Positions 9,201 to 15,200 of a stretch of 64,000 nt of DNA are shown piece after piece; position 1 is the first letter of the stretch, and each line of letters opens with the position of its first letter. This DNA comes from Trichostrongylus colubriformis (taxonomy: Eukaryota; Nematoda; Chromadorea; Rhabditida; Trichostrongylidae), in NCBI GenBank assembly GCA_963978905.1, contig OZ022258.1, positions 36,207,282 to 36,271,281 on the forward strand, in the 5' to 3' direction. Made by a program: the position numbers and the translations under genes. The notes under the pieces are model-generated. The model was not told the origin of the DNA and did no database searches. It was given only the letters and a program-made list of their open reading frames with translations.

Positions 9201-12200
9201 AGAGAACTGTTGCGCCGTTCACATATTCTGAGACGAAGCTGCTCCAACCAATTGTGAAAGTACATTACTAATATCTTGATCACATAATTTGATCTAAGAT
9301 TCATTGATAATCAGCATATAACTTGCTGCTAGGCCGTATGCGCTAAACGTTGCCTGGCATGTCTTTGAATATGTTTCATCTCACAATAGACAAAATAAAT
9401 AGTTTCAACATGTCTGCCTACTATATCACCCGCTTTGGATATCAAAAAGCCAAGTTTAATCTGGACCCATTGAGAACCTATAGCTGGACATTAGATCTTA
9501 TGCATAACTTCTTTTGCTTCCGCTTTTATTCACTCTTTCATAATGTAGTAGTAAAAAAAGACATTCAGGTGTCTCTTGGCTGAAGATTACTAATGCTGTT
9601 GAAGAAAAATAACAGTAGAAATCAGGCAAATAATTGCTTCGAGAATCATTTTTACTTTTTGCGACTTTGTGTGTCACTTGTTGGTGATTGTATATTTGAT
9701 CAACTGGTTTACTTGCAGCTCCTTAGGTGCACTGGGTGATTCATTCTACGAGTATCTCATCAAATCATGGCTTCAATCCGGAAAGACGGACAAGCAAGCC
9801 AGAAGGTTGTACTGGGAAGCTAGTGCAGCGATTCAAAGGAAGTAGGTGACATTATTACATTAAAAAAATACTCGAACAGATAAGCGAAATTAACCTTTCC
9901 CGAACGGAAGTGACCAATCCGTGCCAAAAATCTAGAGGTCGTAATCCTAGAAGACAACAGCGATCAGTGCAATAGAATCGCTCAGGCTAAGGTTAGAAAG
10001 AACAATGGGGAAAATATGATAAATAGTGTTAAGAGGACTAATATCCAAGATAATTCTCACTTCCCACTTGAAAATCTTAAAGAGAAAGCAAAAAGAGGCG
10101 CACCGCCAATAGGTGTCAAGGTCAGGTCGCACAGCGTACGGATAAACCATACGCGTTTGGTCATATATCCATGATACCTTATTCACGCTTGTTCCACAAT
10201 GAAGCTGGCCAACGCGAATCGCCGCTGGTCCCCTGGCACCGAACACACGTGCAGAGGGCCCTCCCATATTCACTACCCGTGGTGCGCGTTATCTAGTCAC
10301 AGGTCATCAAATTTCCATTCTCTTCCAAACATTTTGCTGGTCTACCTTGTCTGATCCCTCGATCTCGTAGTAATTGGTGAGCTCCTCGAGATGGTGTTGA
10401 CTGGCCTCTTACAGTGATTTGTCGTTGAACAACATGACAGTTGTGATGGGTAATTTATGGATAAATTGGATTTCAGGTTTGTAAAGGTGCACTCCTGACT
10501 TTTTACCGATGGTTTCGAAAATTGTCAGATAAAAATGGCTTTCAGTTAATATTATTACTCTATGGAAGTAAACTATTAGTTCAAATGATGAAACAGGCCG
10601 TAATGTATTCATAATCTTGGTGTTTGAAAAGTTTGGCTAATACAGTTGCATGTCACTGTGAGAGGCCCAACAATACCTTCTGGAATATCTCAGTGGGCTG
10701 ATTATTGCTGCGAGATCGAGGGGTCAGACAAAGTAGAACGGCAGAAGAGAAAACGAAATGAATGATGATCCCGGATTTCACTCATGATAGTGATGTATAG
10801 GCTTTATATATAAAGGATTTATGACGCAGTATGTCGAAACAGGTAAGATTTTCTAGGGTGAAGGTTTTATCGTTCTGAAACACCATGTTTCTAACCAATC
10901 ACAGATGATCACTACCATAGCAATCGGGTGAACAGATATCAAACGATCATATCACCATTGAAGAATAAGAGCCTGAATTTCGTTCAGTTCAGAATAGGAT
11001 AACAGCTCTATGAGTTGTTGAGCTATGTTGACGGCAGCCTTGCCTCCCGGTTGTAATTTTAGCGCGCGTTGCTCACTACATAGTGCTTTCTGGCATTTTG
11101 TCCGTGCAAAAACGTAAAAAAGTTAGCTTTTTTGAAATTTGAAAGGTCTTTGCTGAGCTGATTCGAATAATATACAGTTATAAAAAGATTAAGTGAAAAC
11201 CAACAGAGTTGTGGTAGAAACGAGAAACACGGATCCGGTTTCCCGCGTTTGTTTCGAAAACTTACGGCGCATATTCTAAACTGGAAAAGCGTTTGTATCC
11301 ACTGGGATGTAAAAAGGAATCTCATGCATGGCGCATCCAAGGGCAGCCAAGGCCTCGCCCTGCCCTCCCTCTGATTCCATGAAAGCACAAAAGTATTGGG
11401 TTGGGGAATAAGTCCCCGCCGTTTTTTTTTATCCTCGTTTTTCACATTGTTTCCTTTATCCTTCGACAGAGCTTATATATGTTTTCGATAGAGCTTTTTC
11501 TGCTCTACAGAAAGCTATTATCTGTTTCTCGATTCTTTCGACTTTCTAATATTTATGAGGTTTGGAAATGAATTAAGCTGAAGACAAAAAGTTGGCACTT
11601 GCGCACCTCATCTTTCTCGTTTGCCATCGAGATCAAAAAATATATGTGTATATGTTTCGATAGAGCTTTTTCAGCTCTACAGAATGGTACTACTTTTTAT
11701 CCAAATCGCTCAACTTTTTGTTGTTTTTAAAAATCACAAATGCAGTACTAGCAAAAGTAAGTACTTTCGTTATCTCCTCTTCCTCGCCCACCATCGCGGT
11801 TGGAGAGGATGTGCGTATATGTACTCGATAGAGCTTTTTCTGCTCTACAAGATGATACCTCTATTCTTTTGTAGCCTCTCAAATTTTAGCATATAGGCAT
11901 AGGTTTTTACCTGTTTTTCAATTCGAAATTGCGTAATAAAAATAAATTTTTCTGACAGAATGCTTCCCATCATTCGATAGAGCTCTTTTCGCTCTACAAG
12001 GATATGTTGACGGTTTTTGTCAGAATTAATTTTTGCGATTTTTTGAAACATTTAAAAGTCGACGAAATCGAGCATTTCCGACTACATCTGTCAAAAATGC
12101 TCGATATCGTCGACTTTTAAATAATTCAAAAAATCGCAAAAATTGATTCTAACAAAAACCGTCAACACATCCTCGTAGAGCGAAAAGAGCTCTATCGAAT

Positions 12201-15200
12201 GATGGGAAGCATTCTGTCAGAAAAATTTATTTTTATTACGCAATTTTGAATTGAAAAACAGGTAAAAACCTATGCCTATATGCTAAAATTTGAGAGGCTA
12301 CAAAAGAGCAGTGGTATCATCTTGTAGAGCAAAAAAAGCTCTATCGAGTACATATACGCACATCCTCTCCAACCGCGATGGTGGGCGAGGAAGAGGAGAT
12401 AACGAAAGTACTTACTTTTGCTAGTACTGCATTTGTGATTTTTAAAAACAACAAAAAGTTGAGCGATTTGAATAAAAACTAGTACCATTCTGTAGAGCTG
12501 AAAAAGCTCTATCGAAACATATACACATATATTTTTTGATCTCGATGGCAAACGAGAAAGATGAGGTGCGCAAGTGTCAACTTTTTGTCTTCAGCTTAAT
12601 TCATTTCCAAACCTCATAAATATTAGAAAGTCGGAAGAATCGAAAAACAGATAGTAGCATTCTGTAGAGCAGAAAAAGCTCTATCGAAAACATATATAAG
12701 CTTTGTCGAAGGATGAAGGGAACAATGTGAAAAACGAGGATAAAAAAAACGGCAGGGACTTATTCCCCAACCCAATACTATTCCAGGGACGCTGGATAAA
12801 CTTTCCAATGAACCATGGGAAAATTTTTATATTTCGACGGAAAAATTTCTTCGACTGAATTTCGCTGATATAATTTTTCTGAAGATGTGGCATAATTCCA
12901 GTAGTCATTGAAAAGCGGCTACCTCTCAAACCCCACTTCGGGAATTCGCGCTGCAAAGGTTAAGATTGAAGGAGGTCACGACAGTTTGAAGTGAGGCACT
13001 CCGAAATTTTTCCGGATTATCCTCGTCTGAATTTGCATAAAGAGAACCACGTAGCTATCATAAATCTCTTTATGCACATTACCCAGCAGCCAATAGATCA
13101 AGCTAAGAAGTTCATTATAAATTTGACATTACTTTGAAAGATTGCGACCCAAATTTACTATGAAGATGGGAACGTGCTCCATTGTCGCTGTTGCGATAGC
13201 GACGCTGGAAGTAGTCTGGTTTTTATTTTTTTTAGCTTTTTTGTCCATCCTTTATCCTTGCTGCGCCACTTGTACAACTTTTTATCTTGTTCTCTATTAT
13301 GGATGATTAATACATCACCCATGGTCGGCGATGTTTTGGAAGGAACGTCATGTGTACGTCACGATCTCAGTTTTCTCCATGGATTCTTAATTCCTCGGTG
13401 GATCACACTGTCGGTTAGGAAGCCATAGAAATACATTTATATAAGGAAGGGGACGTATGGAGACTCACTACTGGAGGGTCTTGAGGGTCTTATTCATTGA
13501 AGATTTTCCTCCATGCCATGCTTGAACCTGTGCCCACCCGGCAGCCACTTCAAAAAGTTACGTTTCAGTTGAATTCTTTTATTTTTGCGTAAGTCTTTGC
13601 AAGCGATCCTTAGTAAGCAAACCATGGGTAGCAAAAGAACGCAAATTTCCGTGGGTGACTTCTTCAAACAGCTCCAGCACTCAGCATTTGGTTGGTCAAA
13701 TATTGATCGTATGCCCTGCTATACCGTCGTTGTTTTAAGCATGGTTTTCACATCCAAAACGGGCCTCACTTATGTAGCCGAGCTTCGAAATGGCCTGCCG
13801 GACCATAAGATGGGTCATTTGGCATGCTTCTCAGTGGGAATGTTCGCCCTACAAGCAGTCAACGAAAAAGAACCGGAAAAACGAGTAAGTACCTAAAATT
13901 TTTGAACGAAGGTTTGTCGACGTTTTTTTGATCGAGTCATAATGAGGCTTGAGATTTGTGGATTGCGGAGCAGTTTCAGAACAATCCAAAATCGGTTTTT
14001 TCGAGTGGACTGAGTTCTGTGGATGACTGAAGAAGAGCTATTGCTAAGTTTTCTGTCATTCAGGCAACTACAATGAAGTTAGCTGAGGAACTCGGGAAGA
14101 CTTGTCACGAAAGTTACGTGAGGACGACGACGCGCATTGGCCCAGAGATGTTCTATTTCAGCGGAAGTGATGAAGCCACGAGCAGGTAAACAAACCCACT
14201 ACGGCGAAATGCGAGACTTCACGCATGCCATGAAAAACATGGAATAATCAGTTTGGAACAATGACAAAAAGAATGTTCCTGTTTCAAAGAGCTCATGTGA
14301 TACATAAAAGGTCATTTGTCGTTGAGCAACTTCGTTTGGAATGTGCCAAACATCCCCGGCATCCATTCGGAGCCATCGTCGCATTTTGAATTTAATTTGA
14401 CATATCCAGTGACTGCACTGATCCGGTATTGGACCCCCTAGCCATTCAAGCTGACCCTCTCGACATTACGTACACATTTTTCCGCAGCTGACCTGACTGG
14501 CTACATCATGTTTTGTACATCTTTTGGTGTTTCTTTTGTCTGTTTCGTAAATAAAGAAAACGTCCTCACTAGAAATGATTATTATCATATGCTTACTTCA
14601 GGAACAGCGAGAATTCATATATACTGCGACCCGAAGTGATTGAAGGGTTTTTCTACCTATGGAGACTAACAAAAAATAGTGTGAGTGGACTAACCTTTCC
14701 AATACATTATAAAAAAAGCCCTACCATGGTTCCATACGCGAGTAAGGAAGACACGTCATTTTACGTTGTTGTTGCTGTGCATGTCAAAGAGTCCTTCTGT
14801 TTGTATTCATGCTGTATTTGCATACTACGGGTTTCATGAAAGTTTCTGACAAAAAAACAACCCGGTTGAGATACGGCTTCGCAAAGTTATGTGCGACGAC
14901 ATGGGCTGTTGGAAGCAGGGTCAAGCGTGGCGTCGAGGGAAATCCATGGAAAATTCGACCTCCCTTAAAAGGGGCCTTCATACGATCCCCTCCCTTCTTC
15001 AGGTTCCGCTATTTTTGTTGTTTCTACTCAGCCAATGCGATTCATCAAGGAAATTAAGATCCTACGGTAAAAGTTACTGAGACCAAACACCTGACGAAAT
15101 GAGTGAAATAAGAACCTCAAAAATTCAATAATTTTATTCCGAAACGAAAGCGTCGCCGACCATGGGTAGCGTGTTCGTCCTCTGATGACAAAGTAGAGTC

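Follow-up and report, generated by a model that had tools for sequence, protein, structure and literature searches.

The window analysed here, a 64,000-nucleotide stretch of Trichostrongylus colubriformis DNA, contains a 1380-bp palindrome (11396..12775, no strand assigned) that raises three questions: what kind of element it is, why its two arms are so alike, and whether it serves the gene in which it sits. A preliminary description had proposed a giant, near-perfect fold-back, and the structure proved to be real. The left arm (11396..12078, plus strand) and the right arm (12094..12775, minus strand), both delimited by arm alignment, are each about 682 bp long; leaving gaps aside, 3.5% of their aligned positions differ. 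The 660-nt stretches 11423-12082 and 12090-12749 are 96% complementary and gap-free, and the outer 41-nt ends (11389-11429 and 12742-12782) are 95% complementary. Between the arms lies the centre CGACTACATCTGTCA (12079..12093, plus strand), placed by comparing centres across copies. It is asymmetric, and its length depends on how the arm ends are defined, being 15 nt here instead of the 18 bases first given. As had also been proposed, the element has TA flanks and ends of the Tc1/mariner type. The TA target-site copies were read in the sequence at 11394..11395 and 12776..12777; the left terminal repeat, comprising the first 28 bases, is mariner-like (11396..11423, plus strand; divergence 0.0199), and its 28-base counterpart on the right (12748..12775, minus strand) was located as an end-pattern match.

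Eight evenly spaced mini-hairpin sequences, four per arm, had been described, and all eight are present as exact TAGAGC-N7-GCTCTA sites, hereafter boxes. Boxes 1 to 4 lie on the plus strand at 11489..11507, 11661..11679, 11829..11847 and 11978..11996. Their mirrors lie on the minus strand: box 5 (mirror of 4) at 12176..12194, box 6 (of 3) at 12325..12343, box 7 (of 2) at 12493..12511 and box 8 (of 1) at 12665..12683. The spacing in each arm is 172, 168 and 149. With up to two mismatches, the pattern matches nine times in the window; 100 shuffled sequences averaged 1.7 matches, and none of them reached nine. The suggestion that the arm is built of diverged sub-repeats held in part. Units 2 and 3, direct sub-repeats of about 165 bp (11512..11850, plus strand; limits approximate, taken from the family consensus), are by their alignment clear diverged duplicates, with a score of 70 when none of 500 shuffles exceeded 36, whereas the other unit pairs show weak or no similarity outside the box. 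The element thus has the features of the fold-back class, namely long inverted arms that make up almost the whole element and internal sub-repeats, here two units and four boxes per arm.

A genome-wide search for the arm and the box unit, as had been recommended, revealed many other copies. The left arm gave at least 79 matches from the 40 scored among 2,414 candidates; the end pattern (up to two mismatches) occurs at 2,411 genome sites and the box pattern (up to one mismatch) at 3,258, with zero control matches for either. Full-length elements (1360-1381 bp) were found at 36 of the 40 loci fetched, all 36 being occupied sites with TA on both sides. The copies are spread over six contigs and differ in divergence, with a young burst among them. 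Among the first 100 end sites listed, 31 facing pairs lie less than 3 kb apart, 22 of them spanning 1369-1390 bp, and all 17 of the 31 that were read align with the window fold-back. The window palindrome is one copy of an abundant transposon family whose ends number in the thousands across the genome. A one-off assembly error at the window palindrome is unlikely, since this fold-back structure was read again in 36 full-length copies and in further ones.

To place the family, we compared its ends with those of mariner elements. The terminal repeat equals the Himar1 inverted repeat at 17 of 26 bases, the 906-bp mariner family of locus L049 at 18 of 26, and five other mariner ends of the genome at 13-16 of 26. 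We looked at 32 mariner loci (30 plus 2 further hits, from 150 scored hits of 7,219 candidates); the ends closest to those of the fold-back share 17 of its first 20 bases. No transposase-bearing element with fold-back ends was found among these 32 loci, the ends of L068 and L074 being left out of the comparison, and 31 of the 32 showed no similarity to the arm at E 0.1. The exception, L067, is an old fold-back copy adjoining a mariner. Mariner elements, both Himar1 and the families of this genome, share the TA target and end bases with the fold-back, which differs from them in its arms of about 680 bp and in having no transposase gene that we could see. By its TA target and mariner-like ends, the family seems to be of the Tc1/mariner type, and it is apparently non-autonomous. 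A mariner transposase encoded elsewhere would bind the ends, excise the element and reinsert it at a TA.

Longer and shorter variants were also inspected. Two end pairs considered as autonomous elements were rejected: the 2663-bp pair (L079) is a fold-back carrying tandem repeats of about 146 nt and other inserted DNA, and the 1651-bp pair (L080) is a fold-back with an altered middle. L090-L093, four pairs some 1373-1380 bp long for which no exact box was listed, are also fold-backs. Some deletions have their ends in boxes: among six shorter pairs, the junctions lie within boxes in L085 and L086, probably one lineage, and in L089, and are not clearly in boxes in L039, L087 and L088. A 104-aa open frame of the arm consensus, the one frame assessed, gave no coding signal (0.049, 0.046 and 0.041 at the three codon positions), and the family is apparently non-coding.

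The likeness of the arms was explored with a tree of the arms of the 36 full-length copies. Left and right arms of the same copy were closest relatives in 15 of 36 copies, and a clade of all left arms was rejected (p-AU 5.6e-06; 17 of the 36 elements, picked after the first tree was seen). Furthermore, 80 bases were unique to one copy yet present in both its arms, in 17 of the 36 copies, against 0.73 expected from parallel mutation. Judged from these sequence relationships, the arms within fold-back copies are shown to evolve in concert. Sister arms would also be seen if every fold-back were a recent product of a single arm, arising through a process such as template switching, with no conversion in an old fold-back; a switch that ran through the common centre and copied all of one arm would resemble whole-arm conversion and may account for single cases. 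This origin is quite unlikely, as the same asymmetric centre was matched with 0-4 edits in all 36 full copies (weakly in L041 and L047), a partial tract is seen in the right arm of L018, which is B-type at four outer diagnostic sites and A-type at nine inner ones, and the young burst retains inherited arm differences. In L089, the segment from box 3 to box 4 is missing from both arms.

Two copies, L015 and L037, have arms that fall in different clades, which would fit exchange between copies, by ectopic recombination or gap repair, as the source of the sister arms. In Galileo, a foldback-like element of Drosophila, two chimeric copies with unlike arms are ascribed to such ectopic recombination (PMC2775673). 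Between-copy exchange makes the arms of one copy unlike, however, and it creates no bases restricted to the two arms of one copy, such as the 80 observed here, unless these also occur in copies other than the 36; we consider it an improbable source of the sister arms. We infer that the arms are homogenised by arm-to-arm gene conversion, now and then and not at each jump. Since the young burst kept its arm differences, homogenisation would not be coupled to every jump, and since 51 element-unique gap runs occur in one arm only and just 2 are mirrored in both, conversion appears to be limited. It may take place when a mispaired cruciform or snap-back strand is repaired, or alternatively by recombination between arms or between copies. 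With arms homogenised across the family, arm identity alone is no proof of recent origin; of the two causes put forward for it at first, the family-level pattern is that expected of gene conversion, and recency does not follow.

We also examined how the boxes vary. Box stems diverge less than the rest of the arm (0.0245 versus 0.0640), and 3 of 681 circular shifts were as low; in 30 dereplicated arms the values were 0.0433 and 0.0934, with 6 of 681 shifts as low. The boxes are not the sole well-kept part of the arm, as a few other stretches (arm positions around 40-54, 165-176, 203-222 and 670-681) equal them, and in box 3, 37% of arms carry a non-majority base at stem position four. No compensatory change was found among 1,717 stem cells, a tally in which the majority G-T pair of box 3 could not count as compensatory, and conservation of the hairpin as a structure is not supported. 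Because the stems vary little without compensatory changes, the box sequence, rather than the hairpin, seems to be constrained. Box-to-box homogenisation within one element could also lower box divergence. Protein binding is most likely the cause of the constraint, with the boxes perhaps serving as accessory transposase sites. A more speculative proposal, which we rate as unlikely, is that the eight evenly spaced boxes form an accessory array recognised as duplex DNA by a protein, either a transposase dimer or some host factor, which would bring the arms together; pairing would promote both arm conversion and box-to-box deletion, and the element would thereby actively stay a near-perfect palindrome.

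The fold-back sits within an inferred 3.9-kb intron, on the sense strand of a gene identified as a GH47 mannosidase, in agreement with the location first proposed. The exon before the intron (9719..9841, plus strand) and the one after it (13740..13884, plus strand; weak acceptor) have limits placed by eye. This position in the sense transcript, and a predicted RNA fold consisting of one duplex of about 680 pairs (-1156 kcal/mol), with no separate folding of the eight small hairpins, would be consistent with co-option to regulate the gene, the pre-mRNA duplex giving rise to siRNAs, ADAR editing or altered splicing. Such a role is very unlikely, given that the window copy is one among at least 40 family insertions, with the arms of other copies 82-94% identical to its left arm, and that no feature distinguishing it was seen when the copies were compared. 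Most likely the fold-back is a passenger that would be spliced out with the intron. Overall, the window fold-back is very probably a non-autonomous, apparently non-coding mariner-type transposon whose arms evolve in concert and whose boxes seem to be constrained in sequence, most likely carried as a passenger of the mannosidase gene.

Related architectures are found in other animals. Tc6 of Caenorhabditis elegans is a near-perfect palindrome of about 1.6 kb linked to Tc1-type ends, and it resembles the fold-back in both respects; a 1991 paper deals with a transposon-related palindromic repeat of C. elegans, probably Tc6. Tc6 is not known to carry a box array. Galileo, like the fold-back, has long inverted arms, and two copies have arms more than 99% alike within a copy and about 7% different between copies (PMC2775673), a pattern similar to ours, with occasional unlike arms in both. 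According to work cited in PMC4079207, repeats inside its TIRs provide additional sites for the transposase. Galileo belongs to the P superfamily, with target duplications of 7 or 8 bp in D. willistoni (PMC4168063), whereas the fold-back has TA and mariner-like ends. Tetris, a foldback element of Drosophila virilis, has long TIRs with internal repeats of about 220 bp; its description reports that no autonomous partner was found and that, of its three complete copies, two may have been homogenised (PMC4079207). Tetris is like the fold-back in its long arms, internal repeats, possibly homogenised arms and lack of a found partner; its tandem repeats vary in number, in contrast to the four boxes per arm, near-fixed spacing and two clearly duplicated units seen here.

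Fold-back transposons as a class have long been known. We met no published description of this family, or of its three terminal strings, in the literature searched, though one may still be published. With many copies of varied divergence and a common centre in one genome, arm conversion can be measured base by base. The slowly changing box array, at less than half the rate of most of its surroundings, provides a concrete candidate binding site, and long near-perfect intronic palindromes such as this one are candidate sources of double-stranded RNA.

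The preliminary description had proposed a fold-back with eight mini-hairpins, and this was confirmed at 11396-12775 (1380 bp), where eight exact TAGAGC-N7-GCTCTA boxes are spaced 172, 168, and 149 nt apart in each arm. TA is present at both flanks. Self-comparison of the window aligned the arms over 660 nt at 96% complementarity without gaps, and the outer ends over 41 nt at 95%, while a gapped alignment gave a 3.5% difference between the arms (gap columns not counted). The element lies in the sense strand of a mannosidase gene, as had also been proposed: the host gene, on the + strand, encodes a GH47 mannosidase. 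It matches PF01532 (Pfam) in four stretches, the match just after the intron scoring 20.7 bits, below the 22.9 cut-off, and the exons on both sides of the intron match chains named mannosyl-oligosaccharide 1,2-alpha-mannosidase IA. The host intron spans ~9842-13739 (3.9 kb, + strand; limits placed by eye), with a non-textbook acceptor. The transcript is predicted to fold into one hairpin of ~680 pairs at -1156 kcal/mol (no shuffle control at such length); the eight small hairpins would then be hidden within this single duplex.

Searches of the genome (330.9 Mb in 52 contigs, six of which sum to ~329.5 Mb) recovered many further copies of both the arm and the mini-hairpin unit. The left arm of the window copy gave 79 matches, from 40 scored of 2,414 candidates. 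All 40 scored places were fetched; 36 are full length (1360-1381 bp), each with TA on both ends, and four (L035, L039, L044, and L048) are partial or short copies. The end pattern including TA has 2,411 genome matches (≤2 mismatches) versus none for its reversed control, and the box 1/2 pattern 3,258 (≤1 mismatch) versus none. Of the matches listed, about 100 for either pattern and all on one contig, the first 100 end sites form 31 facing pairs less than 3 kb apart, 22 of which span 1369-1390 bp; all 17 of the pairs inspected are fold-backs of the same family as the window copy. The asymmetric centre, 15 nt between the arms (12079-12093), was found with 0-4 edits in 36/36 full copies; the match is weak in L041 and L047, and the orientation is uncertain in the latter. 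On the simplest reading, all copies derive from one ancestral fold-back.

Under a single origin followed by drift, left arms are expected to cluster with left arms, and we tested this expectation. The median arm difference was 3.7% within a copy versus 10.4% between any two arms, and the two arms were sisters in the tree in 15 of 36 copies. A clade of all left arms was rejected (p-AU 5.6e-06) for 17 elements picked after the first tree, namely all but one of the 15 sister pairs plus three young-burst copies; among the 19 omitted elements are the chimeras and three non-sister copies (L036, L038, and L040). Eighty bases, spread over 17 of the 36 copies, were shared by the two arms of a single copy and absent from all other arms of the set, versus 0.73 expected from parallel mutation; a further 351 unique bases were confined to a single arm. 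In L018 the right arm carries B-type bases at the four outer diagnostic sites and A-type bases at the nine inner ones, the segment from box 3 to box 4 is missing from both arms of L089 (97.9% alike), and in L015 and L037 the two arms of each copy fall in different clades.

The 13 diagnostic arm differences, defined on 10 young-burst copies, are all kept in both arms by six of the 16 burst members (the burst as we outlined it from the tree), and all but one by three more. Mixed diagnostic states occur in L014, L018, L022, L025, L031, L032, and L034. The burst contains no doubly present unique bases, its copies being young with few unique bases overall, and among all element-unique gap runs two are mirrored in both arms versus 51 in one arm. 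Arm homogenization is real but occasional, since the burst keeps its arm differences and few gap runs are mirrored, and it is not tied to each jump.

Departure from the majority per base was 0.0245 in box stems and 0.0264 in loops versus 0.0640 in the remainder of the arm, with 0.0667 in the five bases flanking the boxes on each side and 0.0199 in the 28 terminal bases. Shifting the stem pattern circularly through all 681 positions gave three equally low values; with 30 dereplicated arms the values were 0.0433 for stems versus 0.0934 for the remainder, with six of 681 shifts equally low. Arm positions ~40-54, 165-176, 203-222, and 670-681 are conserved to the same degree, and the boxes are therefore not alone in being well conserved. 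In 37% of arms, box 3 deviates from the majority at its fourth stem base. No compensatory stem changes were found in 1,717 stem cells (76 one-sided and four two-sided changes). In the old copy L067, whose inner part aligned poorly, 39 of 44 stem bases agree versus 406 of 526 aligned bases in the remainder. Deletion endpoints fall in boxes in L085, L086, and L089; L085 and L086 are 93.9% alike and probably represent one lineage. The earlier suggestion that the arm was built from diverged sub-repeats holds for units 2 and 3, which are duplicates (score 70 versus a maximum of 36 in 500 shuffles), while the remaining pairs of units show weak similarity, or none, once the box is left out. We read the boxes as candidate protein sites recognized as duplex DNA. 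The internal TIR repeats of Galileo are said to contain transposase sites, in work cited in PMC4079207.

Over 26 terminal bases, the fold-back matches the Himar1 ITR at 17 positions and the ends of a 906-bp mariner family from its own genome at 18, compared with 13-16 for five further mariner ends found there. Mariner transposase is abundant (150 scored of 7,219 candidates). No transposase was found between fold-back ends in 32 mariner loci (30 from the transposase search and two fetched; the ends were worked out for all but L068 and L074), and the engine is therefore one that we infer. Arm similarity occurred in only one of the 32, L067, where the old fold-back copy adjoins a mariner. Separately, L081 (G000:C5:135200-137300) is a mariner whose transposase frame is open over 345 aa; 34 of the 150 scored matches have this frame length and an identical score of 97.2 bits, a pattern suggestive of very recent spread.

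The window holds other repeats. A DNA transposon at 41861-43415, which we take to be Tc3-like, has inverted ends of ~213 nt (pieces 95-98% alike), each containing GGTGCAWAATGATAAAGCCAC twice, and a non-open interior that is transposase-like by eye. An open frame of 591 aa at 21181-22956 (minus strand) carries DUF1759, presumably a BEL/Pao-type gag, and is adjoined by direct repeats at 20557-20789/23079-23311 (97%) and 20896-21185/23412-23701 (99%). Translations of 24348-24611 and 25276-25488 resemble, by eye, the C-terminal part of mariner transposase. A satellite-like repeat of ~145 nt occurs in both orientations at 47824-48405, 52310-52642, and 60511-60807; the insert at 1007-1504 of L079 is likewise a tandem repeat, with units of ~146 nt. 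A tandem repeat with a 466-bp unit (~2.4 copies, parts 91-99% alike) lies at 4659-5792.

For C. elegans, the literature includes a palindromic repeat related to transposons, reportedly named Tc6. Fold-back elements with internal repeats are already known, Galileo and Tetris being described in PMC4079207, PMC2775673, and PMC4168063. The T. colubriformis family resembles Galileo, as PMC2775673 presents it, in having arms that are alike within copies and unlike between copies. What sets it apart from known relatives is the mariner-like ends, the TA flanks, the constrained regular array of boxes, and the mirrored box-to-box deletion.
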